Part shown: piece by piece, positions 31,962-48,914 of the stretch
Numbering within the stretch: position 1 is the first letter of the stretch
How the letters are laid out: the number at the start of each line of letters is the position of its first letter
Assembly (NCBI GenBank): GCA_021792755.1
Contig: JAJYUA010000020.1
Location: forward strand, 1-64,000
From: Pseudomonadota bacterium
Lineage (GTDB): Bacteria > Pseudomonadota > Gammaproteobacteria > Steroidobacterales > Steroidobacteraceae
DNA: 64,000 nt
Reading direction: 5' to 3'
Notes under the pieces: generated by a model
What the model was told of the DNA's origin: nothing
Databases searched by the model: none
The model's input: only the letters and a program-made list of their open reading frames with translations
Made by a program: the position numbers and the translations under genes

Positions 31962-33314
31962 GTGAGTGAGGTGCGTGGCGGTGCGAGTGCCGATATGGAG
32001 CCTGTCGCGGCGTCGCACGCGCATGCCACGCCAGCGGAGGAGGCCACCAGCCTGGCGCAGCGGTGGTATGTCGCCTCCATGATGTGCCTGGTCTACACGC
32101 TCAGCATCTCCGACCGCTACTCGATCTCGACCGTGCTCGAGCCCATCCGGCTGCAGCTGCATCTCTCGGACGCCAATGTCGCATTTCTCACGGGCGTCTC
32201 GCTCGCTCTCTTTTACGTGTTCTTCGGCTTTCCACTGTCGTGGCTGATCGACCGCTACAGCCGCCGCAACATCATCGGCGCATCGCTCATCGCCTGGTCG
32301 GCGTTGACGACGGCTACGGGCGTGGCCCGCGGCTACGGCCAGCTTCTCTCGGCGCGCATCGGCGTCGGCGTCGGAGAGGCCGGCGGCACGCCGGGCGCCA
32401 ACTCGCTCCTGTCGGATTATTTCCCCGCGGCACGCCGGCCCATGGCGCTGCAAGTGTTCGCGCTCGGCGCGCCGATCGGCGCCTGGATCGGCTCGCAGAT
32501 CGCAGGTGCGCTCGCCTACCGCTTCGGCTGGCGAGCCATGTTCCTGCTGCTCGGCCTCCCCGGCGTGATCGCCGGCGCGCTCATCTTCCTCACCATCCGC
32601 GAGCCGCGCCGCGGACGGCTCGATGCGCACGCCCATGCGCCCGCCCCGCCCGTCCGCGACACCCTGCGATTTCTCTGGAGTCAGCGCTCGGCGGTGCACC
32701 TGATGGTGGCGGGCGCGATCACGGCGCTCTGGGGATGGGGCCTCATGTGGTGGACACCCGCGTTCCTCATGCGCGCCTACTCGCTCAACGTCGCGCAGGC
32801 GGGCGCCATCCTCGGGCCCGTGCACCTCATCGGGGGAAGCGCCGCGATGATCGGCAGCACCTGGCTGCTCTCTCGCCCGGCATTTGCCGATCCGCGCCGC
32901 ATCGTGCGCTGGCTCGGCGGATACGTCGGCTTCGCGACCATCGTCACGGCCGTGATCTACTCCACCTCCTCGCTCACACTCACCCGCTGGCTCTTCTGGC
33001 TGTACATCCCCGCGCTCTACGTCTACATCGGCTCGAGCTTCGGCATCCTCAACAACCTCGCCCTGCCGAGGATGCGCGCCATGTACTGCGCCATCACGCT
33101 GTTCATCGCCAATGTCTGCAACCTCATCATCGCGCCCCAGGCGGTCGGCTTCCTGAGCGACTGGTTCGCGCCGCACGGGCAGCCGACGGCGATGTCGCTG
33201 CGCCTGGCGATGCTGTGCCTCGTGCCGACGGGCTTCTGGGCGAGCTGGCACTTCTTCCGCTGCGCGCGCGATCTGCTCGCGGACGAGGGACGCGCCAAGA
33301 GCATCGCCGCTTAG
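31962..33314 (+). CDS. MFS transporter, spinster-like
   Basis: A 450-residue membrane protein with about twelve helices. The segments LSISDRYSISTVLEPI, PLSWLIDRYSRRN and RIGVGVGEAGGTPGANSLLS are typical of the spinster-like/ACS-related MFS group common beside TonB receptors in sphingomonads and relatives. It starts at GTG 31962, 15 bases after the GMC gene, so both are probably one transcription unit for a shared substrate. Its TAG stop overlaps the convergent MttB-family stop (TTAG). Confidence 0.85.
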   Translation: MSEVRGGASADMEPVAASHAHATPAEEATSLAQRWYVASMMCLVYTLSISDRYSISTVLEPIRLQLHLSDANVAFLTGVSLALFYVFFGFPLSWLIDRYSRRNIIGASLIAWSALTTATGVARGYGQLLSARIGVGVGEAGGTPGANSLLSDYFPAARRPMALQVFALGAPIGAWIGSQIAGALAYRFGWRAMFLLLGLPGVIAGALIFLTIREPRRGRLDAHAHAPAPPVRDTLRFLWSQRSAVHLMVAGAITALWGWGLMWWTPAFLMRAYSLNVAQAGAILGPVHLIGGSAAMIGSTWLLSRPAFADPRRIVRWLGGYVGFATIVTAVIYSTSSLTLTRWLFWLYIPALYVYIGSSFGILNNLALPRMRAMYCAITLFIANVCNLIIAPQAVGFLSDWFAPHGQPTAMSLRLAMLCLVPTGFWASWHFFRCARDLLADEGRAKSIAA

Positions 33315-34840
33315 CTCACCGGCGGCGCGCCGCCCTCCTCCGTGCGCCGCGCGATGAACTCATCGAGCGCCTGCGCGCAGGCCGCCGCCGATGCCGGCGG
33401 CGTGAACTGCGCCAGCACCTGTTTCCACTTGTCCCGCGCCCGCTCCGGGGCGGTACGCTCGCCGTTTTCCTGCCAGGTGCCGAAGTTGGACACATCCGCG
33501 ATCAGCGGCTCATAGAACGCGGTGCGATAGCGCGCCATGGTGTGCGCCGCGGAGAAGAAATGGCCGCCGGGCGGCACCTCGGCGATCGCCCCGAAGCCGA
33601 GCGTATCCTCGTCCGCCGGCGGCGCCACGCACAGCTCCGCCAGCATCTGCAGCACCTCGATGTCGGTGATGCACTTCTCGTAGGAGTTGGTGAGCCCGCC
33701 CTCCATCCACCCGGCCGCGTGGATGCAGACGGTCGCCCCGGCGAGCACGCTTGCCCACAGCGAGAACTGCGTCTCCCAGGCCGACTGGGCATCGACCACG
33801 TTGGCCGCCGTGCCGGCCCCGGCCCGCCAGGGCAGCCCCACGAGCCGGGCGAGCTGGCCGGCCCCGAGTGTCGCCTGCAAGTGAGTCGGAGTGCCGAAGG
33901 CCGGAGCGCCGGATTTCATATCCACATTGGAAAGAAAGCTGCCATAGAGCGCGGGAGCGCCGGGGCGCGCGAGTTGCGCGAGCGTGATGCCGGCGAGCGC
34001 CTCGGCGTGCTGCAGCGTCAGGGCGCCGGCGACCGTGATGGGCGCCATCGCGCCGGCCAGGCAGAACGGGGTGATGATCGCGAGCTGGCCGTTGCGGGCG
34101 AAGTCGATGAGGCCCTGCGCCATCGAGTTATCGAGCGTGCGCGGGGAGTTGCTGTTGATCACGGTGTAGGCGTAGGCCCCGGCCCGGAACCGTTCCTCGG
34201 ACAGGCCGCGGGCCAGGCGGATCATGGCAAAGCAATCCTCCACCTGGCCGCGGCCGCGTGCGGACACCTGCGGCATCTTGTCGGACAGGGTCAACTGCAC
34301 ACGCATGGTGGCATAGTGGCGCACGTGCACCGGCACGTCCTGCGCCTCCACGTGGTTGCCCAACATGTGCAGCACCTCAAAGTGCTGACTGAGCTTGGTG
34401 AGATCGGTCAGATCGGCGAGCGATCCGGGCCGCCGCCCGCGATCGAGGTCGCTCGCGTTCGGGCAGCTCGAGCCGCCGATGAACAGCAGCGACCCGGGTG
34501 CGAACTCGACCGCACGCCCCGGATCGGCGCCGAAGCCCCGGAAGGCCCGCGGACAGCGCTCGAGAGCGTGCCCGATGATCTCGCGCCCCAGGCGCACCAT
34601 CTCGGTGTCCTCGTCGACCAGCGCTCCGGCCCTGCGGTAAAGAGCGCGCGCCTCCGCAAGCAGCACCTTGATGCCGAGCGTCTCGTTGATCCGCAGCGCG
34701 CTCTCGTGCATCGCAGCCACCGCCTCATCCGAATACACCCGCTGCGGCGTGAACGGATTGCGCAACTGCCGGTAATCGCTCCGGCGGGCGGGCGGGCGCT
34801 CTTGCGCGGACTGGCCGGGATGACGTCGGTTGTGCCTCAT
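33311..34840 (-). CDS. Trimethylamine methyltransferase (MttB) superfamily protein 1, non-pyrrolysine
   Basis: A 509-residue MttB-fold protein with family blocks such as TVINSNSPRTLDNSMAQGLI, ITPFCLAGAMAPITVAGAL, GSFLSNVDMKSGAPAFGTP and HAAGWMEGGLTNSYEKCITD. Known members of this superfamily move a methyl group from trimethylamine, glycine betaine, carnitine or proline betaine to a corrinoid protein. The frame has no internal amber codon, so it is the pyrrolysine-free type. No corrinoid protein or reactivase gene is in the window. It lies downstream of the sarcosine oxidase operon on the same strand after a 211-base gap, so demethylation of a betaine feeding into that pathway is likely. Confidence 0.87.
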   Translation of the reverse strand: MRHNRRHPGQSAQERPPARRSDYRQLRNPFTPQRVYSDEAVAAMHESALRINETLGIKVLLAEARALYRRAGALVDEDTEMVRLGREIIGHALERCPRAFRGFGADPGRAVEFAPGSLLFIGGSSCPNASDLDRGRRPGSLADLTDLTKLSQHFEVLHMLGNHVEAQDVPVHVRHYATMRVQLTLSDKMPQVSARGRGQVEDCFAMIRLARGLSEERFRAGAYAYTVINSNSPRTLDNSMAQGLIDFARNGQLAIITPFCLAGAMAPITVAGALTLQHAEALAGITLAQLARPGAPALYGSFLSNVDMKSGAPAFGTPTHLQATLGAGQLARLVGLPWRAGAGTAANVVDAQSAWETQFSLWASVLAGATVCIHAAGWMEGGLTNSYEKCITDIEVLQMLAELCVAPPADEDTLGFGAIAEVPPGGHFFSAAHTMARYRTAFYEPLIADVSNFGTWQENGERTAPERARDKWKQVLAQFTPPASAAACAQALDEFIARRTEEGGAPPVS

Positions 34841-35051: not shown

Positions 35052-35657
35052 CTAGCGCGTCTCGAACACGAACCCGAACTCCGCGGCGCTGTCATGCACC
35101 GCCCGATACAGGCTCTGGGCGAAACTGCGGCCGACGGACAGCTCGAACGCCGCCTCGCCCCGGCCTGTGTCCTCCAGGCGCCACAGCGTCACCGCCATGT
35201 GCTCGGCCACAGTCTGGGCAACGTCGTCCACTTGGAAGCTGCGCTCGTGCAGATCAACGGGTACCAGCTTGGCCAGAGCCTCCCTCACCCTCGCGCCGGC
35301 GAGACGCAGCATGACGTAGGCATCGCTCAGGTCGACCACTGCGGCGTGGCCCCCGATCGAGTCGCGCAAACCGGCGGCGAAGGCGTTGCCGGCGCTCTCG
35401 CAAGTCATCAACCAGCACTCGGGACCGACGCCGGCCGCGGCGAGATCCCCTGAGCGCATGCGCCGGGGTCCCGCCGGCAGGGCGAGATGCAAGCGCTTGT
35501 GGACCAGCTGCTCGAGCGCGGCCAACTGCCGGTTGCGGGCCGTGATCCGCGCGATGCCGAGTCCCTCGCGCTCGCCCGCGACCACGCCCTCTCCGGTCCC
35601 CGCGCTCGCGGGCATGGCGGCGAACGGCGAGAGCGGACCGTACGCAGAATCAACCAT
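35052..35657 (-). CDS. soxG: Sarcosine oxidase gamma subunit
   Basis: The 201-residue gamma subunit of heterotetrameric sarcosine oxidase. The sequence is weakly conserved in this family, but the C-terminal pattern LSVGRSFAQSLYRAVHDSAAEFG and the position after soxA, with only 5 bases between them, identify it. The ATG at 35657 is chosen because it fits both length and spacing. It is the last gene of the bla-like, soxB, soxD, soxA, soxG unit. Confidence 0.88.
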   Translation of the reverse strand: MVDSAYGPLSPFAAMPASAGTGEGVVAGEREGLGIARITARNRQLAALEQLVHKRLHLALPAGPRRMRSGDLAAAGVGPECWLMTCESAGNAFAAGLRDSIGGHAAVVDLSDAYVMLRLAGARVREALAKLVPVDLHERSFQVDDVAQTVAEHMAVTLWRLEDTGRGEAAFELSVGRSFAQSLYRAVHDSAAEFGFVFETR

Positions 35658-35662
35658 GCGGC

Positions 35663-38632
35663 TCAACTTCTCACCCGCTCGCCGGCCGGATCGTAAAAGA
35701 CCGGGTGGGCGATCTCGACCTGCACGTCCTCGCCTCGCAGCGGATCGTACGCCCGCATGCGCTCCCCGAGACGCTCCCGGCCCCGGCTCAAGAACCCGAG
35801 TCCGATCCAATGCTTGAGAGTCGGGGAATACGCCGTCGAGCTGACGAAACCCTCATCGTGCGAGAGCGTCGCCGGCGCGCCGGCGGGCAGCAGGTGAGCG
35901 CCGGTGCTCAGGCGGGCACGGCGGTCGAGGGGAGCAAGGCCGATCAGAGCGGGCCGCTCGGCGGCGGCGAGACCGGGCCGGGCCGCGAGCACCCGGCCGA
36001 TGAAATCCTTGCGCGCCGACACCAGCCGCCCGAGTCCAAGATCGGCGGCGGTGCTCGTGCCATTGATCTCGGCCCCAGCGGCATGACCCTTCTCGATGCG
36101 CATCACCCCCAGGGCCTCGGTGCCGTAGGGCACGACGCCCAATGTCCCGCCCGCCGCCATGAGCGCGCGTACCGCGGCCTCACCGTACCGCGCGGGCACC
36201 GCCAGCTCGTAGCCAAGCTCCCCGCAGAAGGAGATGCGAAACAGCCTCGCGGGCCGGCCGTGCCAGAGAAACTGCGCGCAGGCAAGATACGCAAACGCCG
36301 CGCCCGCGACCTCCAGCGCATCGCCGAGCACACGCGCGAGCAGCTCCCGGGAGCGGGGTCCGGCGATCGCAATCTGCGCCCATTGCTCGGTGACGGAAGC
36401 GAGCTGCACGTCAAGCTGCGGCCAGAGCACCTGGCGGGCATGCGCCAGGTGGCGCATGACCCGGCCCGCATGGACCGTGCTCGTCGAGAGCAGAAAGTGG
36501 CATTCCTGCAGACGCGCGACTGTCCCGTCGTCCAACACGATGCCGTCCTCCCGCAGCATGACCCCGTAGCGAGCCCTGCCGACCGACAGCGTCGAGATCA
36601 TGTTGGCGTAGATCCGATCAAGGAACGCCCCGGCATCGGCTCCCTGGACGTCGATCTTGCCCAGCGTCGACACGTCGCAAATGCCCACGCCAGTGCGAAC
36701 ACCCGCGACCTCTCGAGCCACCGTGCTGCGCCAATCGGCCTCGCCGGTGAGCGGGAACCACCGCGCCCGCCTCCATTCCCCGGCATCGACGAAGACCGCG
36801 CCGCGCTCTTCGGCCCATCGATGGCTCGGGGTGAGCCGGCAGGGCTTGAACTGCGCCCCGCGGGCGCGCGCGGCGAGCGCTCCGATCGCGACCGCCGTAT
36901 AGGGCGGCCGCGCGGTGATCGTCCCCACCTCCGCCGGCTCCCGCTGCGTCAACGCTGCGAGCAGCGCCTGGCCGGTGAGTTGGGAGCTCTTGCCCTGGTC
37001 GGTGCCCATGCCGAGCGTGGTGTAGCGCTTCAGGTGCTCGGCGGAGCGGAAGCCTTCGCGCACCGCGAGCGCGATGTCCTCGACCGTCACATCGTGCTGG
37101 TAATCGACGAACGCCTTGCCCCGACAGCCCGGCACGCTCCACAGCCGGGCCGAGCCGACCGGCTCCTCCTCCGTGCGCCACTGCTCGAGCGGCGCATCGA
37201 ATCCCGCCGAGCCCGCCGCCTCGCGGCCGGCGGCGGCGCCCGTGCGCAATGCCCCTGCGAGCGACAGCTCCCCAGACGCCGCCCCGACGGCGATCATCCC
37301 CGGCGGCAAATCGGCGGGCACATGGGCGCCAATCGCCTCCGACCAGCGCGCTCGTCCGCCAAGGTGGGTCGACAACGCCGTGTTCGGACTCCAGCCGCCC
37401 GCCACCGCGAGCGTATCGGCGCGGACCCGGCTCACATGCCCCTCCTCGCCTCGCACCTCGATCCCCTCGAGGCCTGCCCCGCCACGGGTACCGAACACCA
37501 GGGCGCCGGGCATGATGCGGACCCCGAGCCGGCGCGCCTGCGCGCACAGCGCTGGCGGGGGATCCCGGCGCGCATCGACGATCACGGGCACATCGAGGCG
37601 CGCCTCGATGAGGTCGAAGGCCGTCTGCCAACCGTCATCGCAGGCCGTAAACACCGCGATGCGCCGCCCCGGCGCGACCCGGAAGCGATTGACGTAAGTT
37701 CGAACCGCCGAGGCGAGCATGACGCCGGGGCGGTCGTTGCCGCCGAAGACGATGGAGCGCTCGAGCGCGCCGGCGGCCAGCACCGCGCGCCGGGCGACGA
37801 TCTTCCACAGGCGTTGACGCGGTTGATGCGGCCGGGGGACCGGCACATGATCGGACACGCGCTCGAGCGCCGCAAAAGTGTTGCCGTCGTAGACGCCGAA
37901 CACCGTCGTACGGGTCAGCAGGCGCACCTCGGGCAACGAGCGCAACTCCGCTTCCGAGCGCCTGGCCCAGAGCGCGCCGCTCTCGCCGCCGATCCGGTGG
38001 CGATCCCCGTTCAGGCGGCCGCCGAGGAGGAAATCCTCATCGCAGAGGATGACGCGCGCCCCGGGGCGTGCGGCGGTGAGCGCCGCCGCAAGCCCCGCCG
38101 GCCCGCCGCCGATCACCAGCAGATCACAGAACGCGTGCGCCTTCTCGTAGGTGTCGGGATCGGCCTCGCCGCTCGCTCGGCCGAGCCCGGCGGCCCGCCG
38201 GATCGCCGGCTCGTAGAGCTTCTCCCAACAGGCCGCCGGCCACATGAAGGTCTTGTAGTAAAACCCCGCCACGAACAGCCTCGACAGCACGGAATTGACC
38301 GCTGCGGCATCGAAGGCGAGGCACGGCCAGCGGTTCTGGCTGCGCGCCGCAAGGCCCTCGAACAGCTCGATCATCGTGGCGCGGGTGTTGGGCTCGCGGC
38401 GCGCGCCGGTGCGCAGCTCGACCAGCGCGTTCGGCTCCTCGCTGCCCGCCCCGAGCACTCCCCGCGGCCGGTGGTATTTGAACGAGCGCCCGAGCAGCCG
38501 CACACCCGAGGCGAGCAGCGCCGAGGCGAGCGTGTCGCCCGGATGGCCCGTGTAGCCCCTGCGGTCGAAGGTGAACGACAGCGTCTGATCGCGCTGAATG
38601 GCGCCCTCGCCGGCGAGGCGGTGCGAGCTCAT
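35663..38632 (-). CDS. soxA: Sarcosine oxidase alpha subunit
   Basis: A 989-residue subunit of the tetrameric enzyme that oxidises sarcosine to glycine and passes the methyl carbon to tetrahydrofolate. It has the N-terminal ferredoxin-like segment (FDRRGYTGHPGDTLASALLA), an FAD/NAD(H) domain with LLVIGGGPAGLAAALTAARP at about 165, and a C-terminal GcvT-like folate domain from about 600 (GVGICDVSTLGKIDVQGADA). The length matches the family. The ATG overlaps the soxD stop (ATGA). The neighbours soxD, soxB and soxG complete the four subunits. Confidence 0.95.
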   Translation of the reverse strand: MSSHRLAGEGAIQRDQTLSFTFDRRGYTGHPGDTLASALLASGVRLLGRSFKYHRPRGVLGAGSEEPNALVELRTGARREPNTRATMIELFEGLAARSQNRWPCLAFDAAAVNSVLSRLFVAGFYYKTFMWPAACWEKLYEPAIRRAAGLGRASGEADPDTYEKAHAFCDLLVIGGGPAGLAAALTAARPGARVILCDEDFLLGGRLNGDRHRIGGESGALWARRSEAELRSLPEVRLLTRTTVFGVYDGNTFAALERVSDHVPVPRPHQPRQRLWKIVARRAVLAAGALERSIVFGGNDRPGVMLASAVRTYVNRFRVAPGRRIAVFTACDDGWQTAFDLIEARLDVPVIVDARRDPPPALCAQARRLGVRIMPGALVFGTRGGAGLEGIEVRGEEGHVSRVRADTLAVAGGWSPNTALSTHLGGRARWSEAIGAHVPADLPPGMIAVGAASGELSLAGALRTGAAAGREAAGSAGFDAPLEQWRTEEEPVGSARLWSVPGCRGKAFVDYQHDVTVEDIALAVREGFRSAEHLKRYTTLGMGTDQGKSSQLTGQALLAALTQREPAEVGTITARPPYTAVAIGALAARARGAQFKPCRLTPSHRWAEERGAVFVDAGEWRRARWFPLTGEADWRSTVAREVAGVRTGVGICDVSTLGKIDVQGADAGAFLDRIYANMISTLSVGRARYGVMLREDGIVLDDGTVARLQECHFLLSTSTVHAGRVMRHLAHARQVLWPQLDVQLASVTEQWAQIAIAGPRSRELLARVLGDALEVAGAAFAYLACAQFLWHGRPARLFRISFCGELGYELAVPARYGEAAVRALMAAGGTLGVVPYGTEALGVMRIEKGHAAGAEINGTSTAADLGLGRLVSARKDFIGRVLAARPGLAAAERPALIGLAPLDRRARLSTGAHLLPAGAPATLSHDEGFVSSTAYSPTLKHWIGLGFLSRGRERLGERMRAYDPLRGEDVQVEIAHPVFYDPAGERVRS

Positions 38633-38898
38633 GGGGCGGCGCTGGCCCCGGCGAGGCGCACTTCGAGAATCTCGTGCGTGCGGGTATCGCGGGTCACCTG
38701 CACCCAGGAGCGGCAGCCGAATTCGTGGTACCACAGCTCCCGATGCGCTCCGGCGGGGTTCTCGCGCAGATACACCGCCTCGACGAACCGCGCCTGCGCG
38801 TCGGCGGCGCCGGGCGCCGGCCGCGCGCAGCCGGCATCGCCCAGATAGGCGAACTCGCTGTGATCGCGCTCACCGCAGAAAGGGCATTCGATGCGCAC
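38629..38898 (-). CDS. soxD: Sarcosine oxidase delta subunit
   Basis: An 89-residue zinc-binding subunit. CPFCGERDHSEF at the N-terminus and HEFGCRSWVQVTRDTRTHEI further on carry the cysteines and histidines that bind zinc in known SoxD proteins. It lies 13 bases after soxB and overlaps soxA by four bases (ATGA), the standard soxBDA order. Confidence 0.94.
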   Translation of the reverse strand: MRIECPFCGERDHSEFAYLGDAGCARPAPGAADAQARFVEAVYLRENPAGAHRELWYHEFGCRSWVQVTRDTRTHEILEVRLAGASAAP

Positions 38899-38911: not shown

Positions 38912-40162
38912 TCAGTGAAGGTTCGGCTGCGGGCCCTGCCCCTTCTCATCGAGCAGGTCTCCGGTGGCGAAGCGATCGAGGCGGAATGCGCGCGCGAGCT
39001 CATGACTTTCTTCGCGCGCGAGCAGGTGGGCGAGGCAGTAGCCCGCGGCCGGCGTCGCCTTGAACCCGCCGTAACACCAGCCTGCATTGAGGTACAGCCC
39101 CTCGAGCGGCGTGCGGTCGATGATCGGCGAGCCATCCATCGACATGTCCATGATGCCGCCCCACGAGCGCAGCAGCCGCAATCGGCCGATTGCCGGCATC
39201 AATGCCATGCCGCCCGAGCACACGTCCTCGACGGTCGGCAGATTTCCGCGTTGCGCGTATGAGTTGTAGCCGTCGAGGTCGCCGCCGAAGACCAGGCCGC
39301 CCTTGTCCGACTGGCTGACGTAGAAGTGTCCCGCGCCGAAGGTTACCACGCAGGGCAGGACCGGCTTGATCGCCTCGGAGACGAACGCCTGCAGCACGTG
39401 GCTCTCGATCGGCAGGCGAAGGCCCGCCATCGCCGCCACCCTCGAGGAGTGTCCGGCGACCGAGACGGCGACCTTGCCCGCCCTGATCTCGCCCCGCGTG
39501 GTGCGCACGCCCGTGATCCGCGTGCCCTCGCGCAGCAGCCCGGTCACCTCGCACTGCTGCACGATGTCCACGCCGAGCCCGCTCGCCGCGCGCGCATATC
39601 CCCAGACCACCGCGTCGTGCCGGGCCGTGCCGCCGCGGCGCTGCAGCAGCCCTCCCTGGATCGGAAAGCGCGCGCCGTCGAAGTCGAGAATCGGCAGCAT
39701 GCGTCTGACCCGCCTCGCATCGAGCAGCTCGGCATCGACCCCGTGCAGGCGCATCGCGTTGCCGCGGCGCACGAAGGCATCCCGCTGGGCGTCGGAGTGG
39801 AACAGGTTGAGCACCCCGCGCTGACTGACCATCGCGTTGTAGTTGAGGTCCTGCTCGAGCCCCTCCCAGAGCTTCATCGACAGCTCGTAGAAGGGGTTGT
39901 TTTCCGCCAGCAGGTAGTTGGAGCGGATGATGGTGGTGTTGCGGCCGGCGTTGCCGAGGCCGATGCAGCCCTTCTCGAGCACCGCCACGTCGGTGAGGCC
40001 GTGCACCTTGGCGAGGTAGTAGGCGGCCGCGAGCCCGTGGCCGCCGCCGCCGATGATGATCACCTCATAGGCGCTCTTCGGCGAGGCATCGCGCCAGGCC
40101 GGCTCCCATCCCCGGTGTCCCGAGCATGCCTGCCGCAGCAGGCTCGCGAGAGAGTAGCGCAT
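38912..40162 (-). CDS. soxB: Sarcosine oxidase beta subunit
   Basis: The 416-residue catalytic flavoprotein subunit, where sarcosine is oxidised. The FAD motif VIIIGGGGHGLAAAYYLAKV, LGNAGRNTTIIRSNYLLAEN and RRGGTARHDAVVWGYARAAS (holding the histidine next to the FMN-binding region) are strongly conserved in SoxB. The ATG at 40162 gives the standard length. The upstream bla-like gene ends 17 bases before it, so soxB is the second gene of the operon. Confidence 0.95.
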   Translation of the reverse strand: MRYSLASLLRQACSGHRGWEPAWRDASPKSAYEVIIIGGGGHGLAAAYYLAKVHGLTDVAVLEKGCIGLGNAGRNTTIIRSNYLLAENNPFYELSMKLWEGLEQDLNYNAMVSQRGVLNLFHSDAQRDAFVRRGNAMRLHGVDAELLDARRVRRMLPILDFDGARFPIQGGLLQRRGGTARHDAVVWGYARAASGLGVDIVQQCEVTGLLREGTRITGVRTTRGEIRAGKVAVSVAGHSSRVAAMAGLRLPIESHVLQAFVSEAIKPVLPCVVTFGAGHFYVSQSDKGGLVFGGDLDGYNSYAQRGNLPTVEDVCSGGMALMPAIGRLRLLRSWGGIMDMSMDGSPIIDRTPLEGLYLNAGWCYGGFKATPAAGYCLAHLLAREESHELARAFRLDRFATGDLLDEKGQGPQPNLH

Positions 40163-40173
40163 CGGGTCGGACC

Positions 40174-40190
40174 CGCCTCTTAAAGAGGCG
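40174..40190. repeat. Short hairpin over the stop codon of the beta-lactamase-like gene
   Basis: CGCCTCT and AGAGGCG form 7-bp arms around a TAA spacer. The hairpin covers the last codons and stop of the bla-like gene and lies 11 bases upstream of the soxB start. Without a T-run it is unlikely to end transcription; it could tune soxB translation or protect the mRNA end. Confidence 0.35.
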
Positions 40191-41889
40191 ACATGCGATC
40201 GACCATGCGGATCGTGCGCGTCGCCGCCCCGGAATTGGCGCTCTGCCCGGGCGGCAAGTGTCCGGCCTTGGCGATGCGGATCGTGATCAGCGAATTCGGA
40301 TACAACACGATTTCGTTCTCTCCCCAGCCGCGCATGGTCGGCAGGAAGTACTGCCGGCCGCTCACCGCGCCCACGTAGGGGGTGAAGTGAAAGCCCATCT
40401 TGTAGAGGTTGCCGCTCTTCGGGCCGCGCTCGGCGCCGGCCGGCCCGAGCGCGGCGTCGCCGCTTTGCACCAGCGCGTCGCGGCCGTTCAACAGGTCCTC
40501 GGTGAGGCCCCGGTGCAGGATCTGCCGCGAGCCGGCGGCGCCGCGGTTTTGATAGAGAAGCGCGATCTTGCCGAGATCGTCGAGCAGTGGGTAGTAGCCG
40601 GCGTGAAACCAGGGCACGCCGCGCCTGCCGTCCGGCTCCCGCGTCCTCACGATGGGCGCATGGGGAATGCCGATGGGCTTGAAGACCTCCGCTCTCAACA
40701 TGTCCCAGATGTCCGCCTGCGGCCCGCGCACGGACTTCAGGAACCGGTCCAGGGCGGCGCCGAGCAGATAGTAGTCCTGGTCGCGATAGCGCATCACCGT
40801 GCCCGGCTCCCAGGGGTAGGGCCGGTCGCACAGCTCCATCTGCCGCAGCTTGTCCTTGTGGGAGCGCGCATCCATCCACTCCTGGTAGCGGCCGTCAAGA
40901 TAGCCGTCCTCCGGGTCGTTCGGGTGGGTCTTCCAGCTGCCCGCCCCGCCGACGCCGCTCGTCATGTTGGCGGCGTCGATGAAGCGGACCCGGCGGTACT
41001 TCGCATCGAGGCCCTCGACATAATCGCCGACTTTCAGCGCCAGCACGTACGGCCCGTAAAGCTGCGCCAGGCGCAGCAGCGCGAGCGGCGCCGCAACGCC
41101 CTTTAGAATCGAGCGCACCCCGAAGCGCATCTCCAGCGGATAGGGATAGTTGCCGTACGGCGTGTGCGCCTCCTGGTAATACAACGTGCCGTCGCGGACC
41201 AGTCCGGTCTGCACCCGCCACTGCTCGCGCACCGGCGCGCCGAACTCGTTGAGCCGCCCGCGCTGAAACTCCCGCGCAAGATCGCTCAAGGGCTTGTGGG
41301 GCAGGCGCCGCTCGAGCTCGGAGAGCGCCTGCGCGCGCTGCGCCGCCGTATCGGCGGTGCGCGACTCCATCCAGCGCGTTTCGGCCGTTCCCCATGCCAC
41401 GAAGTGCTCCTTCAGAAGATAGGGCGCGGTCTGCTGCACGAACTGGAACTCGAGCTCGCTCACTTCGCGGTCCTTGTATCTGAACCTCGCGAGCCCCTGG
41501 TGCGCGTGGGTGTCGCAGCTGCTGACGAGCATCAGCGGAAACGCGGCGTTCGACCAGCCGCCCTGCGCGCGGCTGCGCCACACCCGCCCGAGCTGCGGGA
41601 TGACGCACCAGAAGCTTGAGGTCTGCCCCGCGTTGCTTTCCCGAACCATCTGCCCGCGCTGCAACGGCACGAGCACGCCGTCGGCGGTGACGAACTCCAG
41701 CGTCAGCCCCGGAAAGAGACCCGCATCGCCGCAGCCCTCGATCTGCAGACCCCGCGCCTGCGGCAGCAGGCGCATGTGCGCCGGCGAGATGCGCAGCGTC
41801 CCGGAGAAATCCGGCGCCTCATCCGCATCACGCTCGGGAAAAAAAGCTTCGTTGGCAATCGGCGAATCCGTCACACCGAGCTCGGGCAT
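40180..41889 (-). CDS. Beta-lactamase-fold protein with unknown N-terminal domain, first gene of the sox operon
   Basis: A 569-residue protein. About 230 N-terminal residues match nothing I recognise (blocks such as SNAGQTSSFWCVIPQLGRVW). The rest resembles the class C beta-lactamase/esterase fold: SILK supplies the SxxK nucleophile motif, RRVRFIDAANMTSGVG matches the HLLTHTSG region, and YRDQDYYLLGAALDRFL matches the YxN region, but with Asp instead of Asn. No signal peptide is seen, so it should be cytoplasmic. AAAGG before ATG 41889 supports the start. It leads the soxBDAG genes, so it may hydrolyse an amide or ester that releases sarcosine or a related amine; this is inferred. Confidence 0.7.
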   Translation of the reverse strand: MPELGVTDSPIANEAFFPERDADEAPDFSGTLRISPAHMRLLPQARGLQIEGCGDAGLFPGLTLEFVTADGVLVPLQRGQMVRESNAGQTSSFWCVIPQLGRVWRSRAQGGWSNAAFPLMLVSSCDTHAHQGLARFRYKDREVSELEFQFVQQTAPYLLKEHFVAWGTAETRWMESRTADTAAQRAQALSELERRLPHKPLSDLAREFQRGRLNEFGAPVREQWRVQTGLVRDGTLYYQEAHTPYGNYPYPLEMRFGVRSILKGVAAPLALLRLAQLYGPYVLALKVGDYVEGLDAKYRRVRFIDAANMTSGVGGAGSWKTHPNDPEDGYLDGRYQEWMDARSHKDKLRQMELCDRPYPWEPGTVMRYRDQDYYLLGAALDRFLKSVRGPQADIWDMLRAEVFKPIGIPHAPIVRTREPDGRRGVPWFHAGYYPLLDDLGKIALLYQNRGAAGSRQILHRGLTEDLLNGRDALVQSGDAALGPAGAERGPKSGNLYKMGFHFTPYVGAVSGRQYFLPTMRGWGENEIVLYPNSLITIRIAKAGHLPPGQSANSGAATRTIRMVDRMSPL

Positions 41890-41965: not shown

Positions 41966-43015
41966 ATGGCGATCAGACCCTCTGACAACCCGGTTCCCGT
42001 CGCGTTCTTCCTTGCCCCGGACTTCTCCATGATGGCATTTGCGGCGGCGATCGAGCCGCTGCGCGCGGCCAATCGCCTGAGCGGGCGGCAGCTGTTCGCC
42101 TGGCAGCTGGTCTCGGGCGACGGGGCGCCCGTCATTGCGAGCAACGGCATCCCCGTGGCGCCCCAGGCGCCGATCGCCGCACTCGGCAGAATCGACATGC
42201 TGATCGTGTGCGCGGGCATCGAAGGGCCGCAACGGGTCAAACACGATCCGGCAATCCTGCATCACCTGCGCCGCCTGGCCTGCCACGGAACGATGGTGGG
42301 AGCCATCAGCAGCGGCTCGTTCCTGCTCGCCGAGGCGGGGCTGCTCGCCGGCAAACGCTGCACGGTGCATTGGGAGTACGCCGAGGACCTGCGCGCGCGG
42401 CACCCGCAGCTGAACCTGACGCAGGAGCTCTACGTCATCGACGGGCAGGTGTTCACTTGCTCCGGCGGAACGGCGGCGCTCGACATGATGCTGCATTTCG
42501 TCACCGCGGTGGGCGGAACCGAGCTTGCCCTCGGCGTCGCCGAACAGTTCATCCATCCGCACATCCGCGCCCGCGAGGAACACCAGCGCCTCGACCTGCG
42601 CACCCGCTACGGCATCCGGAACCCGAAGCTCATCGCGGCCGTGCGCCTCATGGAGGGCTCGCTCGATGAGCCGCTCGACATGGAGGAGATCGCCCGCCGC
42701 GCGCACCTCTCGGCCCGGCAGATCGAGCGGCTGTTCCGCAAGTACCTCGCCAGCTCTCCCAAGGGGTTCTATCTGGGCCTGCGCCTGGCGAGGGCCCGAA
42801 CGCTGCTGCGCAGCACCACGAGCCCTCTGCGCATGATCGCGCTCGAATGCGGTTTCGCCTCCCCGTCGCATTTCAGCAATGCCTACAAGCGCGCATATGG
42901 AATTCCACCGACCCAGGAGCAGCGCCTATTCTCCGCCCGCGGCGGCGGGCAGCCAACCCTGCAGCGCGCGCCAACCCGGCTCCAGCCCCGCAAAACGGCC
43001 GAGTCTCAGGGTTGA
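41966..43015 (+). CDS. GlxA-subfamily AraC transcriptional regulator, divergent from sox operon
   Basis: A 349-residue regulator with a DJ-1/PfpI-like domain (VAFFLAPDFSMMAFAAAIEP; elbow AISSGSFLLAEAGLL) and a C-terminal AraC DNA-binding domain at about 215-315. It is close in layout to GbdR/CdhR and to the regulator at 1117-2130. It is transcribed away from the bla-like/sox operon across a 76-base gap, so it likely activates that operon. Its 3-prime end overlaps the convergent FAD-dehydrogenase gene by 90 bases, which adds a Gln/Arg-rich tail to the regulator. Confidence 0.86.
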   Translation: MAIRPSDNPVPVAFFLAPDFSMMAFAAAIEPLRAANRLSGRQLFAWQLVSGDGAPVIASNGIPVAPQAPIAALGRIDMLIVCAGIEGPQRVKHDPAILHHLRRLACHGTMVGAISSGSFLLAEAGLLAGKRCTVHWEYAEDLRARHPQLNLTQELYVIDGQVFTCSGGTAALDMMLHFVTAVGGTELALGVAEQFIHPHIRAREEHQRLDLRTRYGIRNPKLIAAVRLMEGSLDEPLDMEEIARRAHLSARQIERLFRKYLASSPKGFYLGLRLARARTLLRSTTSPLRMIALECGFASPSHFSNAYKRAYGIPPTQEQRLFSARGGGQPTLQRAPTRLQPRKTAESQG

Positions 43016-44083
43016 CAGATCCGCGAATCCGCACCTCCCGCTCACCACCAGATCGCGCACCGCCCGGCCCGCGGCCGGGGAGAGCCCGAAGCCGACGCTC
43101 GAGAGCGTGGCGATCGTCAGGTTCTCGAGGCTCGCCGGACGATCGAGGACCGGGCGGCCGTCCGGGGTGTTCTCGATGAATCCGGCCCAGCTGCGGATCA
43201 CGCGGGCGTGGGCCGCCTTTGGAAACAGCGCGTACAGGCGCCGGGCGATGCTCGCCTGCAGCACCGTGGAGTGGGCGCGTGCGCCCACGTCCTGCAGCTC
43301 GACCCACTCGTGCGGACCGCCGCCGTAGGCGAGATTGCCGCGCAGCGTCTGGCGGCCGTAGAGACCGTTGCCGTCGACGGCGCCCGTTGCCATGAGCGCC
43401 AGAGGCTCGGTCACGATCATCTCGGCCCGTGCGCTCATGAGCGGCAGCGCGACACCGAGCTGCGCGGCGAGCGCGCCCGTGGCAGGCCCCGCCGCGATGA
43501 CGAGCTGATCGCAGGCGAAAGCGCCACGGGGTGTCCTTACCCCGGCCACCCGGTTGCCGCGCGTATCGAAACCCAGGACCGGCGTGTGCTGCAGGAGCCG
43601 TCCGCCGTGATCCTGCAATGCCCAGGCGTAAGCCTGGACCGTGCGATGCGGATTGGCGTGGCCGCCGAAGTGATAGAAGTACCCGCCGTAGGCCTCGCCG
43701 GCGAACGGCACCAGCTCGCGGATCTGTGGTGGATCCAACACATCGGTGCGAAACCCCTGGCGCGCGCCGTTCTCGAGCGCGCGCCGATACAGCCGAAACT
43801 GCCGCTCATCGAGCGCGATGCGGATCCGATTGGGCCGGAACTCCGTCGGGTAGCCGAGCAGCTCATCCAGCATCGGCCACAGGCGCTGCTCCTCGAGGAA
43901 CAGCGGACTGTGGTGATGCGAGCAGCCGCCTCCGTTGCGGCCCGATGCGGCCCAGCCGATCGCCCCGGCCTCGATCACCAGCACATCGATGCCGTCGCGG
44001 GCGAGCCACCACCCCGCGCTCAACCCGGTCACGCCCCCTCCGATCACGATGACCGCGGCGCCCTCCCCGCCCTGAGGGCTCAT
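42926..44083 (-). CDS. FAD-dependent amine/amino-acid dehydrogenase, beta subunit (OoxB/HcnC-like)
   Basis: A 385-residue DAO-family flavoprotein with VIVIGGGVTGLSAGWWLARD at the N-terminus and IGWAASGRNGGGCSHHHSPL next, as in catalytic subunits of opine oxidases, hydrogen cyanide synthase HcnC and D-hydroxyproline dehydrogenase. Its ATG overlaps the stop of the partner subunit gene (ATGA), so the two make a complex. The C-terminal 90 bases overlap the convergent AraC-family gene. The substrate is an N-alkylated or D-amino acid by family; in this cluster an N-methyl amino acid is plausible. Confidence 0.83.
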   Translation of the reverse strand: MSPQGGEGAAVIVIGGGVTGLSAGWWLARDGIDVLVIEAGAIGWAASGRNGGGCSHHHSPLFLEEQRLWPMLDELLGYPTEFRPNRIRIALDERQFRLYRRALENGARQGFRTDVLDPPQIRELVPFAGEAYGGYFYHFGGHANPHRTVQAYAWALQDHGGRLLQHTPVLGFDTRGNRVAGVRTPRGAFACDQLVIAAGPATGALAAQLGVALPLMSARAEMIVTEPLALMATGAVDGNGLYGRQTLRGNLAYGGGPHEWVELQDVGARAHSTVLQASIARRLYALFPKAAHARVIRSWAGFIENTPDGRPVLDRPASLENLTIATLSSVGFGLSPAAGRAVRDLVVSGRCGFADLSTLRLGRFAGLEPGWRALQGWLPAAAGGE

Positions 44084-45732
44084 TCGGCCGCCTCCGGTCC
44101 CTCGGTGCAACGAGCGGCGACCGTGTACGAGGGAGGAACGCGCCAGAACGGCACCCATTGCGTAGGCATGCCGAACCAGCTGTCCCAGTGCTGCGCCATG
44201 GCAGCAGACTCCGCAAGCCCCGCCAATTGATCGAGCCTCAGCGGTCGCACGGGCGGACGGTACGTCGCGAGCGGCACATCCGCGAGCGGCCGGCCGGCAG
44301 CGAGGGCGAGCAGCGCGGCGATCTGCTCGCGGCAACGGCGCCCTTGGCAAGGTCCCATGCCTGCCCGCGTCAACCGCTTGACCGCATCGGGATGGGGAGG
44401 AACGTCCTCGAGCGCGGCGAGGCCACCGGACTCGCGGGCGCCCGGAGCTCGCGGCCGGCCGAGATAGCGCGGCGGGCGCAGCGAGAGAATATCGGCGCAG
44501 GTCACCTCCTCGCATTGACACACCTGCGGATCCCCCGGCGCCTGCAGGATCGCGGCTCGCACCCAGGCGAGGCGCTCGAGCGCGGCATCCGCAGCCGGAC
44601 CGTCCGGTGTCGACGGCGCCTCGGGCGCCCCCTCGGCCCGGACACCGAGCGCTTCGAGCGCCGCACGGGCCGCGATGGCGCCTTCGCGGCGGGCCACGGC
44701 CTCGCAGAGCGTCTTTGACGGCCAGATGCCGGCGCAATCGCCGGCCGCGTACACATAGGGGAGCGAGGTCCGCTGCGAGCCATCGAGCAGCGGCGCGTGC
44801 CCGCCGCGCTCCGGCTGGAACCTGACCGCACAGCCGCCGGCCTCGAGCAGCTCGATCGCCGCAACCGCTCCCACCCCCAACAGGACGGTGTCGCATTCGA
44901 TGCTCTGCAGCGGCTGTCCCGTGCGGCGCCCGAGCCCGTCCACGGGAGCGACCCGGACCGCGGTCACGCCGCGGGAATCGCCGCTCGCCTGCTCGATGAT
45001 GTGGCGGGTCAACACGCGCGCGCCCTTGCCGACCAATCGGGCCAGCAGCTTCTGCGGGCCGCCGGCGATCTCGGCCTGCTCGATGATGGCCGCAATCCGC
45101 ACGCCCTGCTCCGAGAGCGCATCGGCAATCTGAAGCGCCTCCGTGCCAGCCCCGAGCAGCACAGCCGTGCGCGCTTCGAGCGCGCCGTAGGACTTCGCGA
45201 GCCGGTAGGCGGCGCTCGCGCCCATGACCCCCGGCCGCTCCCAGCCCTCGAAGGCGAGACCCATGTCGCGGCGCCCGCAGGCGACGATGACCTGCTTGAA
45301 ACCGATCAGGTAGGCCCGGTCCGCATCGGCGAGCCCGGCCACGTGGACGCCGATCCAATTGGTCGTGAGACGTCGGGGAAACAGCCCCCACGCCGCCGTG
45401 CCGAGCCGCACGTCGATTCCGGCGTCCACTGCTTCGGCGAGCCGTGGACTGGCCTCGAGAACCGCCTCGAGCATCGCGTTCCGATTGGCTACCACCGCGC
45501 CCATCCGCCCGCCGAAATGCAGCGGCACCTCCTCGCCCATGGCGCTCAGGGGAATGGGGTTTTCATCCACCAGAGTGACTGGCACGCCGCGGCCCGCCGC
45601 CGCAAGCGCAGCCGACACTCCAGCCGGCCCGGCGCCGATCACGAGCAGATCTGTCGCCTCGCCGATCGGTGGGGCCTTGCCAGTGACCGAGGCGGGGTCT
45701 GGAGCGTGAGGCCTGCTGCCCGGCGGGACCAT
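44080..45732 (-). CDS. FAD/[2Fe-2S] dehydrogenase, alpha subunit (OoxA/HcnB-like)
   Basis: A 550-residue pyridine-nucleotide-disulfide-type flavoprotein: FAD motif LLVIGAGPAGVSAALAAAGR at the N-terminus, a second nucleotide motif AVLLGAGTEALQIADAL, and AAGDCAGIWPSKTL. A C-terminal BFD-like domain carries CQCEEVTCADI and GPCQGRRC, whose cysteines should bind a [2Fe-2S] cluster. This is the electron-accepting subunit of OoxAB/HcnBC-type dehydrogenases. The small ferredoxin-like gamma subunit found in many such systems is not adjacent. It is divergent from the second MttB gene, which suggests a shared substrate route. Confidence 0.85.
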   Translation of the reverse strand: MVPPGSRPHAPDPASVTGKAPPIGEATDLLVIGAGPAGVSAALAAAGRGVPVTLVDENPIPLSAMGEEVPLHFGGRMGAVVANRNAMLEAVLEASPRLAEAVDAGIDVRLGTAAWGLFPRRLTTNWIGVHVAGLADADRAYLIGFKQVIVACGRRDMGLAFEGWERPGVMGASAAYRLAKSYGALEARTAVLLGAGTEALQIADALSEQGVRIAAIIEQAEIAGGPQKLLARLVGKGARVLTRHIIEQASGDSRGVTAVRVAPVDGLGRRTGQPLQSIECDTVLLGVGAVAAIELLEAGGCAVRFQPERGGHAPLLDGSQRTSLPYVYAAGDCAGIWPSKTLCEAVARREGAIAARAALEALGVRAEGAPEAPSTPDGPAADAALERLAWVRAAILQAPGDPQVCQCEEVTCADILSLRPPRYLGRPRAPGARESGGLAALEDVPPHPDAVKRLTRAGMGPCQGRRCREQIAALLALAAGRPLADVPLATYRPPVRPLRLDQLAGLAESAAMAQHWDSWFGMPTQWVPFWRVPPSYTVAARCTEGPEAAE

Positions 45733-45991
45733 GTACCGTCGCGTATCCGACTAATGCGTTGGCGAAAGTATTGCCCGGCGCCCGCGCGTCAAGTTCGCAA
45801 ACCCGACATCTTGCGCACAGTACACGACGTGTTCGCGGCGGCGGGCACATCCCGGTGCCTGCGCTTCGTGCTGCAGAGTGGTCGGGCGCCGCCAAGCCCG
45901 TCGTGCGAACATACGCTTGCGTCGGATTTCCGTAAGCGCGAGCCGGCGCGGCACCGGATCCTTGGCCCCACAGATGTGCGAGCGTGCTCCC
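45733..45991. promoter_or_regulatory. Divergent promoter region of the OoxA-like and MttB2 genes
   Basis: A 259-base spacer between outward-facing operons. It should hold promoters for both, but apart from a somewhat AT-richer start (TATCCGACTAATGCGTTGGC near 45747-45766) I could not define repeats or -35/-10 boxes. No gene is visible. Confidence 0.35.
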
Positions 45992-47527
45992 ATGGAGACA
46001 CACCGACGACGCGAAGGCACCAGAGCCCGGCGCAGCGCGGGCGGGCGACTGCCTCAGCTCCCGTGGCAGGCGGTGAGCAATCCGTTCCCCCCGTGGGAGC
46101 TGCTCGCGCCCGAGCAGCTCGAGGCCATACACCTCACGTCCATGCGGATACTCGAGGAGCTCGGCATGGAGGTGCGCTCTGCGCACGCCCGCAGTCTCAT
46201 GCGCGCCGCGGGCGCGCAGGTCGACGAGGCGACGGAAACCGTCCGCCTCGACCGCGGCCTGGTGCAACAGGCGCTCTCGAGCGTGCCGGCCTCCTTCACG
46301 CTGACGCCGCGCAATCCGCAGCGCCGCCTGACCTTCGGCGGCCGGCATGTCAATTTCGGGCTGGTGGCGGGGCCGCCGAACGTGCACGACCGCGAGCGCG
46401 GCCGCCGCGCCGGCAACCTGCGCGACTACTGCGATTTCATCCGGCTCGCCCAGTACTTCAACGCCATCCATCTGATCGGCAACCAAGTCTGCGCGCCCGT
46501 CGAGCTGCCGGCAAACTCCCGGCACCTCGACACCTACCTCGCGAACCTCACGCTTTCGGACCGCCCCTACCACTGCACCGCCATCGGCGCCGGCCGGGCG
46601 CTCGATGGCATCCGGATGATGGCCACCGCCCGCGGCGTGACGCTCGAGCAGATGGCCGCCAGTCCCGGGGTCATCACCATCATCTCGGTCAACAGCCCGC
46701 GCCGGTTCGACGACGCCATGACCGAGGGACTTCTCGCCATGGCAACCCACGGCCAGCCGGTGGTCATCACGCCCTTCACGCTCATGGGGGCCATGGCGCC
46801 GGTCTCGCTCGCCGCGGCGCTCGCGCAGCAGAACGCGGAAGCGCTGTTCGGCGTGGCCCTTACCCAGGCCGTACGGCCCGGCAGCCCCGTCATGTACGGC
46901 GCGTTCACCTCGAACGTCGATCTGCGCTCGGGCGCGCCGGCCTTCGGCACGCCCGAGCACACCAAAGCCAACATCGCGAGCGGCCAGCTGGCCCGCCGCT
47001 ACCGCCTGCCCTACCGGACCTCCAACGCAAGCGCCTCCAACGCCGCCGATGCGCAAGGGGTCTACGAGACCGAGATGTCGCTGTGGGGGGCGATTCTCGG
47101 GGGAGCGAACCTCGTCTACCACGCGGCCGGCTGGCAGGAGGGCGGACTCACCGCCTCGTTCGAGAAACTGGTGCTCGATGTGGAGATGCTGCAGATGATG
47201 ATCGAGCTGCTGAAGCCGATCACGGTGGACGAGGCCGAGCTCGGCTTCGAGGCCGTGCGCGGCGTGCAGCCCGGCGGGCACTTCTTCGGCGAGCCGCACA
47301 CGCTCGAGCGCTACCAGCACGCCTTCTACCAGCCGCTGGTGTCGAACTGGCAGAACTACGAGAGCTGGCTCGCCGGCGGCGGCCACGATGCGCTCGAGCG
47401 CGCCACCGGCATCTGGAAGCGTGCGCTCGCGGAGTACGAGGAGCCGCGCATCGAGCCTTCGATCCGCGAAGCGCTCGAGGAGTACGTCGCACGCCGCCGC
47501 GCGCAAATCGGGGACGGCGAGCCGTGA
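45992..47527 (+). CDS. Trimethylamine methyltransferase (MttB) superfamily protein 2, non-pyrrolysine
   Basis: A 511-residue MttB-fold protein with blocks ISVNSPRRFDDAMTEGLLAM, ITPFTLMGAMAPVSLAAAL, YGAFTSNVDLRSGAPAFGTP and HAAGWQEGGLTASFEKLVLD. It is closer to MttB protein 1 than to MttB protein 3, by eye. There is no in-frame amber codon. It likely demethylates a betaine-type compound; the methyl acceptor is unclear because no corrinoid protein is nearby. The ATG at 45992 gives a length like its paralogue. The MHS-type transporter follows 10 bases after the stop, so import and demethylation are linked. Confidence 0.87.
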   Translation: METHRRREGTRARRSAGGRLPQLPWQAVSNPFPPWELLAPEQLEAIHLTSMRILEELGMEVRSAHARSLMRAAGAQVDEATETVRLDRGLVQQALSSVPASFTLTPRNPQRRLTFGGRHVNFGLVAGPPNVHDRERGRRAGNLRDYCDFIRLAQYFNAIHLIGNQVCAPVELPANSRHLDTYLANLTLSDRPYHCTAIGAGRALDGIRMMATARGVTLEQMAASPGVITIISVNSPRRFDDAMTEGLLAMATHGQPVVITPFTLMGAMAPVSLAAALAQQNAEALFGVALTQAVRPGSPVMYGAFTSNVDLRSGAPAFGTPEHTKANIASGQLARRYRLPYRTSNASASNAADAQGVYETEMSLWGAILGGANLVYHAAGWQEGGLTASFEKLVLDVEMLQMMIELLKPITVDEAELGFEAVRGVQPGGHFFGEPHTLERYQHAFYQPLVSNWQNYESWLAGGGHDALERATGIWKRALAEYEEPRIEPSIREALEEYVARRRAQIGDGEP

Positions 47528-47537
47528 GCGCGACGAC

Positions 47538-48914
47538 ATGGCCGGCGAAGCGGGCGAAATCGAGGCAGGATTGAGCTCGAACAGAGGCTTGGCGAAAAAA
47601 CCAGTGCAAGACCCCGCTGAACACACGGGGCTCGAGGTCGCCGAGCTCAACCGGATCGAATCCCTCTCCGCGAGATGCCTCGGCGCGGGCACGATCGGCA
47701 ACGTGCTCGAATGGTACGACTTCGGGCTCTACGGCTTTCTCGCCCCGCTGATCGGCGCGCATTTCTTCCCCTCCTCCAATCCCATCGCCTCGCTCCTCGG
47801 CGCCTACGGCGGATTCGCCATCGGCTTCGCCATGCGCCCGATCGGCGGCGTGCTGTTGGGCCACGTCGGGGATCGCCTGGGCCGGCGCGCCGTGTTGGCC
47901 CTCTCCATCGTCATGATGGGCACCGCGACGACGCTGATCGGACTGCTGCCGACCTACCGGCAGGTCGGCATCTGGGCGCCGATTCTGCTGGTGGCGGTGC
48001 GCCTCTTCCAGGGATTGTCGGTCGGCGGCGAATTCACCGGCTCCGTGTCGTATCTGATCGAGACCGCTCCCTCTGCCTGGCGCGGGCTCGCCGGCAGCTT
48101 CGCCAACATCGGCTCCGAGGGCGGCTACATCCTCTCCTCGGCGCTCGCGGCCACCACCGTCATCCTCCTGCGCCATCACTCCGAAGCCCCCTGGATCTGG
48201 CGTCTGCCGTTCCTCGGCGGCGGGGCGCTCGCCTGTCTCGCCTGGGTGTTCATCAGACGTCTGTCCCGCGCAGGCTACGAGCCGGATCGACGCAAGGACG
48301 TCCAGCACGAGCTGCCGCTGAAGCAGGCCTTCAGGGAATCCCCCCGGACACTGATCCTCATCATGGTGTTCACCTGGGGCTACGGGGTTCTTAACTACCT
48401 GACACTGGTGTTCCTGCCGACCTTCGCCAGCAAGTTCGGCGGCATCGATGCCGGCGATGCGCTGACGATCAACTCGGCGCTGCAGCTCGCGGCGCTGCTG
48501 CTGATACCCGTCTCCGGCTGGCTGACGGACCGCTTCATCCGGCGCCGCGTGCTGCTGCTCGCGGTGTTTGCCCTGGTGTGCCTCACCTCGGTGACGTTCT
48601 TCGAGATGGCCGGAGGGAACCTCGCACGATTCGGCGTGGCGCAGGGCAGCCTCATCGTGCTGCTGTTCCTGGTCGAGGGCACTGCGCCTGCGATGCTCGC
48701 CGAGCAGTTCTCCTCGCGCTACCGTGTGTCCGGCTACTCGGTGGCGTTCAACATCGGGATCGGCCTGGGCGGGGGCACCGCGCCGCTCATCGCCACGGCG
48801 CTGATCGCTCCGCTCGGCAAGCTCGCCGGCGCCGGTTATTTGGTGGTGTGCGCGCTGCTGTCGTTCGCGGCGCTGTACCTGATGACCGACCGCAGCCGCG
48901 AGCCGCTCTCCTAG
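47538..48914 (+). CDS. MHS-family MFS transporter (ProP-like)
   Basis: A 458-residue symporter-type membrane protein. GTIGNVLEWYDFGLYGFLAP, GFAMRPIGGVLLGHVGDRLG and RLFQGLSVGGEFTGSVSYLI are hallmarks of the metabolite:H+ symporter group that includes ProP (proline/betaine), ShiA and KgtP. It follows mttB2 by 10 bases, so the likely substrate is the betaine or N-methyl amino acid used by that enzyme. It ends 27 bases from the convergent CocE-type hydrolase. Confidence 0.88.
   Translation: MAGEAGEIEAGLSSNRGLAKKPVQDPAEHTGLEVAELNRIESLSARCLGAGTIGNVLEWYDFGLYGFLAPLIGAHFFPSSNPIASLLGAYGGFAIGFAMRPIGGVLLGHVGDRLGRRAVLALSIVMMGTATTLIGLLPTYRQVGIWAPILLVAVRLFQGLSVGGEFTGSVSYLIETAPSAWRGLAGSFANIGSEGGYILSSALAATTVILLRHHSEAPWIWRLPFLGGGALACLAWVFIRRLSRAGYEPDRRKDVQHELPLKQAFRESPRTLILIMVFTWGYGVLNYLTLVFLPTFASKFGGIDAGDALTINSALQLAALLLIPVSGWLTDRFIRRRVLLLAVFALVCLTSVTFFEMAGGNLARFGVAQGSLIVLLFLVEGTAPAMLAEQFSSRYRVSGYSVAFNIGIGLGGGTAPLIATALIAPLGKLAGAGYLVVCALLSFAALYLMTDRSREPLS

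Follow-up and report, generated by a model that had tools for sequence, protein, structure and literature searches.

The window (the whole stretch of DNA that was analysed, 64,000 nucleotides) carries at 40180..41889, on the minus strand, a gene for a predicted serine hydrolase of 569 residues. The protein is termed BLH here, and the name is also used for its relatives. The open reading frame begins with an ATG at 41889, runs for 569 codons and stops at 40180-40182; a longer frame is present upstream of this ATG, but if used it would enter the divergent regulator gene at 41966, and 41889 was taken as the start for this reason. The BLH gene is followed on the same strand, after a gap of 17 bp, by a heterotetrameric sarcosine oxidase operon. 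The four genes form a single minus-strand run: soxB (beta subunit, 38912..40162, start at 40162; TIGR01373, 687 bits, cut-off 529), soxD (delta subunit, 38629..38898; PF04267, E 1.8e-31), soxA (alpha subunit, 35663..38632; TIGR01372, 1303 bits, over the cut-off) and soxG (gamma subunit, 35052..35657; PF04268, E 1e-12). Compared with soxBDAG operons, the window has all four genes with the BLH gene added in front, and we know of no described sox operon that has a hydrolase gene ahead of soxB.

Further genes lie on the other side of BLH. Divergent from it is a GbdR-like regulator of the DJ-1/PfpI-AraC type (41966..43015, plus strand; PF01965 and PF12833), which scores 321 bits against the GbdR family NF052371, under the cut-off of 480. 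Two minus-strand genes follow, one for a soxB-like FAD-dependent oxidoreductase (DAO; 42926..44083, named from Pfam and NCBIfam) and one for an FAD/NAD oxidoreductase with an SO_alpha_A3 domain that resembles the N-terminal half of soxA (44080..45732). On the plus strand there are then an MttB-superfamily methyltransferase gene (45878..47527, with a start that may be near 46073; PF06253, E 1.1e-199), whose PDB relatives include the glycine betaine methyltransferase 9yce (E 3.7e-88), and a gene for a ProP-like MFS metabolite/H+ symporter (47550..48914; TIGR00883 326 bits and ProP 219 bits, both under cut-off). The carrier gene is adjoined by a minus-strand gene for a candidate ester/amide hydrolase of the S15/CocE type (48942-50975; PF02129 and PF08530), which is kept in three related loci (L040, L041 and L043). 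Beyond the sox genes lies a second MttB-superfamily gene (33311..34840, minus strand; the stretch 33329-34828 matches PF06253).

Over its whole length the window contains MttB copies at 33311, 45878 and 62519, DJ-1/AraC regulators at 1117, 2336 and 41966, a GMC oxidase (9014), a dimethylglycine-dehydrogenase-like DAO/GCV_T protein (24399) and enolase-superfamily genes (20013 and 23244), and the genome from which it comes has eight MttB genes. Positions 1-64000 thus look like a quaternary-amine island. A single plus-strand frame at 6901-8991 joins a BetI-like TetR regulator (residues 28-205) to an aldehyde dehydrogenase domain (residues 231-686). Near-full-length single-frame matches at 74-100% identity occur in 12 of 15 genomes, the window's included, and by this comparison the frame is a conserved regulator-enzyme fusion, which probably belongs to the choline pathway.

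A previous sequence-only reading of this DNA had placed a beta-lactamase-fold protein in exactly this open reading frame, and the Pfam search agrees: PF00144 (Beta-lactamase) matches at 30.9 bits against a cut-off of 27, covering only residues 228-461, while NCBIfam yields no family at E <= 1. The same reading had noted an SxxK motif and the residues Y-R-D where Y-x-N is expected. Both are present, as S260-I-L-K263 and Y368-R369-D370. S260 and K263 occur together in 50 of 52 aligned sequences, the exceptions being L085 (no Ser) and L097 (no Lys); Y368 is likewise retained in 50 of 52, and R369, D370 and D372 are invariant. The exact Y-x-N motif is absent from the family, with Asp at the third position in 52/52. 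Because R369 and D370 never vary and Y368 is nearly always kept, YRD must be the family's own version of the motif, neither decay nor a sequencing slip. In the PF00144 fold, it is the tyrosine of Y-x-N that carries the chemistry. A conserved M-x-G-x-G lies near 519-523, in the sequence region expected for the third motif (K-T-G or H/W-x-G).

The altered tyrosine motif, together with a large extra beta domain (see below), could be taken to mean that BLH is a non-catalytic protein that binds or senses quaternary amines. This seems very improbable in view of the retention of the nucleophile and the lysine in 50 of the 52 sequences. The two exceptional loci each contain several BLH pieces (L085:9941-11503 and beyond, and L097:10001-11704 and beyond), and these copies may be decaying or changed.

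An AlphaFold model of BLH, built from the 52-sequence alignment, has a mean pLDDT of 88.8 and a pTM of 0.93. It divides the protein into a beta-rich N-terminal domain (approximately residues 1-195) and a PF00144-type catalytic domain (approximately residues 200-569). In the model, the C-terminal two thirds has the class C beta-lactamase/family VIII esterase fold: members of the PF00144 fold in the PDB, including EstG, match it at Z 21-27 over about 300 residues. The catalytic domain gives Z 26.8 over 333 residues with PIB-1 (8rlj), Z 25.9 with NylB (2dcf; rmsd 3.1 over 308 residues, 12% identity) and Z 25.8 with the esterase Lsa45 (8dc1). BLH has in common with the family VIII carboxylesterases and class C enzymes (PF00144; EstG, EstB, Lsa45, PIB-1) the fold, the SxxK motif, a tyrosine of the catalytic type and perhaps a Gly-rich third motif region, but departs from them in YRD for YxN, in the candidate third motif MxGxG, in the N-terminal beta domain and in its location in quaternary-amine clusters.

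The presence of NylB, an amide hydrolase, among the best structural matches raises the main alternative, namely that BLH uses the same fold and nucleophile as an amidase or peptidase on an amide bond, in a peptide or lipid that is N-methylated or capped with betaine. Genes for S15 and DPPIV-type peptidases and for TonB receptors in the window would suit such a role. However, the structural matches to family VIII esterases are almost as good, and no peptidase gene is conserved next to BLH throughout the window protein's clade; we consider an amidase or peptidase rather unlikely. As for NylB itself, the fold is common to both proteins, but the gene setting of BLH differs and there is no evidence for nylon-oligomer activity.

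The N-terminal region has no assigned relative. The sequence-only reading had counted about 230 extra residues that match no family; the lack of a family holds, and the length is closer to 195-225 residues, since by structure the catalytic domain begins near residue 195-207. No Pfam family was found for the domain in the window protein, and any given family matches at most one of the 52 BLH members there, with E-values at the level of chance. Folded alone, the first 224 residues give a beta-rich domain with a pLDDT of 86.1. A Foldseek search of the PDB with the domain alone returned nothing at E <= 0.001; a second look gave best Z-scores of 8.6 (OmpW, NspA), followed by Cap15 (8.4) and streptavidins (at most 7.8), a level that the tool rates as unsafe. 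Here the domain is regarded as beta-barrel-like in its arrangement, with no proven relative; that other folds are absent from these matches does not count against them.

BLH is confined to a small part of the bacteria surveyed. It was matched in 17 of 99 related genomes (the window's own counted) and in 2 of 24 genera, and in a class sample of 369 genomes at E <= 1e-30 it was found in the window's own genome and in 1 of the 368 others. A scan of genome contigs found 62 loci that encode relatives, mostly in metagenome-assembled genomes titled Gammaproteobacteria or Proteobacteria, with one Steroidobacteraceae, one Nevskiaceae and some Alphaproteobacteria. Some records bear the titles Klebsiella pneumoniae (L054, L077) and Janthinobacterium lividum (L059); those of L054 and L059 look doubtful, because both group with uncultured Gammaproteobacteria in the tree. 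The alignment (A2) and tree omit 11 of the 62 loci, most of them partial or frame-broken (L065, L066, L067, L070, L073, L077, L079, L081, L095, L098 and L099), and the same 11 stay in the 49-locus context count given below. Two duplicates, L027 (of L058) and L034 (of L073), are outside the counts, and L038, L039, L102 and L103 were assigned to the sister group by low identity and not by the tree.

No relative of known function was found in the sequence and profile searches of the PDB or in the plasmid search. Against the PDB, phmmer with BLH gave only a chance hit (E 0.57), and the family profile gave weak local matches to a macrolactin acyltransferase and a NylB-like protein (E 0.004-0.012). 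The plasmid search recovered seven distant relatives with 24-32% identity, one annotated as a serine hydrolase and the others as hypothetical, as beta-lactamase family or not at all. No description of the BLH family was found in the literature searched, which is not proof that none exists. BLH is a real, conserved subfamily of predicted hydrolases; its fold is known, whereas the metabolic setting is new.

For the gene neighborhoods, genes in the loci were called by a codon-usage script, or by a length rule in 16 poorly covered loci, and the calls are uncurated; the genes were then clustered and the common clusters named by Pfam and NCBIfam searches with representatives. Of the 49 loci (partial ones counted) in the window protein's clade, 32 have at least one glycine-betaine or carnitine marker nearby: MttB in 18, a GbdR-like regulator in 18, soxD in 10, soxG in 9, carnitine dehydrogenase in 8 and a BCCT carrier in 6. 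The other 17 have no marker; several of these are short contigs, yet L048, L050, L082 and L093 have long flanks. In the sister group, a marker occurs in 1 of 17 loci (1 of 13 without the four assigned by low identity). Ten neighbors scanned there, one each from nine sister-group loci plus L050, have no common theme and include a PAS kinase, RsmB, OEP and a response regulator.

Four arrangements recur. In the first, BLH stands immediately before soxB (the window and L040-L045), and in the second it stands immediately before MttB; the downstream same-strand gene is Sox/DAO in 7 loci and MttB in 11, with 4-bp overlaps in L049, L064 and L084. In the third, a set of acyl-CoA dehydrogenase, CoA ligase and enoyl-CoA hydratase genes precedes BLH, and the opposite strand usually carries carnitine dehydrogenase, BKACE and BCCT. 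A crotonobetainyl-CoA-hydratase-like gene is directly before BLH in 8 loci (the hydratase of L070 has its top score, 343 bits, with crotonobetainyl-CoA hydratase, under the cut-off of 500), and a gene of the carnitine 3-dehydrogenase family is present in 8 loci, the sole member scanned (L074) reaching 753.6 bits against a cut-off of 592. In the fourth, an MFS carrier gene is followed by BLH. The locus L054 reads GbdR-BLH-MttB-DAO/GCV_T-soxB-soxD-soxA-soxG, with a 4-bp overlap of GbdR and BLH; there is a candidate gene for each step from glycine betaine to glycine, and BLH is the one enzyme to which no step falls. In L046 (15517-19708), sox and BLH are followed downstream by two TmpA-like dioxygenases and a TmpB-like phosphonate HD oxygenase, all under cut-off, which suggests that this cluster may use a trimethylammonium phosphonate.

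Control comparisons bear out the linkage. The 17 genomes with BLH have 20 BLH genes, of which 8 are no more than 10 kb from MttB; of their 86 other PF00144 genes, none is (Fisher 4e-7). MttB is present in 17 of 17 BLH genomes and 36 of 82 others (Fisher 6e-6), and within the genus in 16 of 16 and 23 of 42, respectively (p 5e-4). These values overstate significance, because related loci and genomes are treated as independent, and the contrast with the sister group together with the several distinct arrangements is the better argument. The gene linkage between BLH and quaternary-amine catabolism is strong.

The sequence-only reading had proposed that BLH may release sarcosine, or a precursor of it, from an amide or ester. 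Its broader point, a hydrolase tied to sox metabolism, is upheld as a predicted activity by the conserved catalytic residues, the fold and the neighborhood. Release of sarcosine itself, or the opening of creatinine-like rings directly ahead of sarcosine oxidase, is suggested by soxB only 17 bp away, by the 7 loci (the window included) with BLH directly before soxB, and by a Paracoccus relative (32% identity) beside hydantoinase genes. This explanation accounts for the sox arrangement only, however. MttB, which acts before sarcosine, is the next gene in 11 loci, a gene of a carnitine-type CoA pathway precedes BLH in 8, and in two members of the window's clade, L046 and L058, BLH is not ahead of soxB. 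Because many relatives are next to MttB-like or carnitine genes and soxB is not beside them, sarcosine release is unsupported and must be judged improbable. Release of a precursor fits, with betaine, choline or carnitine the more likely precursor. Placement relative to sox genes, which according to the sequence-only reading should not be random among relatives, is indeed non-random, yet it follows quaternary-amine catabolism generally and not soxB alone. The hydantoinase A/B genes that adjoin the distant relative are on the Paracoccus plasmid pAMI4. A creatinine or hydantoin link suggested by that neighborhood was set aside, as it was seen only once.

Export varies within the family. By a crude rule, 40 of 59 BLH proteins have a signal peptide and the window protein has none, as the sequence-only reading had also stated. 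Twelve of the 19 proteins that lack one by this rule (window, L040-L046, L058, L061, L080 and L083) make up one tree branch. Its support of 94/95 falls short of the star threshold, and the tree shows the fork as open; an inner nine-row sox branch has support of 99/95. The other seven are L055, which is cut at a contig edge, L056, L064, L069, L077 and L087, which have a hydrophobic leader by eye, and L070, an ambiguous case. A single loss of export seems to account for the leaderless branch, including the window protein. Besides the window, this branch comprises 11 loci, and all but one have an MFS carrier gene within the retrieved stretch; the exception (L042) is a 6-kb contig.

The signal peptides of most relatives, together with the structural closeness of macrolactin acyltransferase (6kjq) and penicillin-binding-protein-like folds, could also indicate that BLH hitch-hikes in these clusters and is an acyltransferase, or an enzyme that acts on the peptidoglycan or lipid of the envelope. 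Against this, the linkage to betaine and carnitine genes is repeated in different arrangements, with none of the 86 other PF00144 genes behaving alike, and the window copy kept the linkage though export was lost. A passenger of this kind is accordingly an unlikely explanation, slightly more so than the amidase or peptidase considered above.

Based on these data, BLH would most likely be a trimethylammonium-ester hydrolase, a serine hydrolase that has the class-C-beta-lactamase/family VIII esterase fold and is dedicated to the catabolism of quaternary-ammonium compounds; we put the probability of this reading at roughly 55%. The predicted catalytically competent enzyme would hydrolyze an ester, or less likely an amide, that bears a trimethylammonium group, with acylcholine, O-acylcarnitine and betaine conjugates as candidate substrates. 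S260 would attack the carbonyl, with K263 and Y368 as general bases, and an acyl-enzyme would form and then be hydrolyzed. The freed choline, carnitine or glycine betaine would pass to a degradation pathway in which glycine betaine is converted to dimethylglycine (by MttB-type or other demethylation), then to sarcosine, and finally by soxBDAG to glycine. The exported relatives, which are the majority, would act in the periplasm ahead of uptake, while the window branch, its signal peptide apparently lost, would be cytosolic and use a conjugate imported by a neighboring MFS carrier. We infer the substrate class, the cellular site and the direction of the pathway; that the bond is an ester, and not an amide or lactone, is a guess by analogy with the nearest folds.

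Hydrolysis of a quaternary-ammonium ester is the simplest role, because it would serve the sox, MttB and carnitine settings alike, because HocS provides a precedent, and because MttB/PF06253 proteins are linked to betaine demethylation. HocS is an alpha/beta-type hydrolase whose fold is unrelated to that of BLH. The two proteins can be likened, by description alone, in that each follows the logic of a hydrolase within a quaternary-amine operon: a Pseudomonas aeruginosa study places the short-chain acylcarnitine hydrolase HocS in the carnitine operon caiX-cdhCAB-hocS, and calls the medium- and long-chain acylcarnitine hydrolases of that organism unidentified (PMC5806209). A PF06253 protein of the marine bacterium Ruegeria pomeroyi demethylates glycine betaine, according to another report (PMC12478193). 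A more specific proposal, which we regard as tentative, is that BLH represents a new family with a beta-lactamase fold and its own beta-barrel-like N-terminal domain, which opens choline, carnitine or betaine esters (possibly medium- or long-chain acylcarnitines) and whose site of action, in one branch, shifted from the periplasm to the cytosol on joining the sox operon.

If trimethylammonium-ester hydrolysis is the true role, BLH would supply a missing first step in the breakdown of betaine and carnitine by Steroidobacteraceae-like Gammaproteobacteria, a large group that is mostly uncultured, and would show by what entry conjugated quaternary amines reach the sarcosine route. A beta-lactamase-fold family would then also have a physiological substrate class that can be tested, and BLH would provide a case of an exported hydrolase that turned cytosolic alongside a change of operon.
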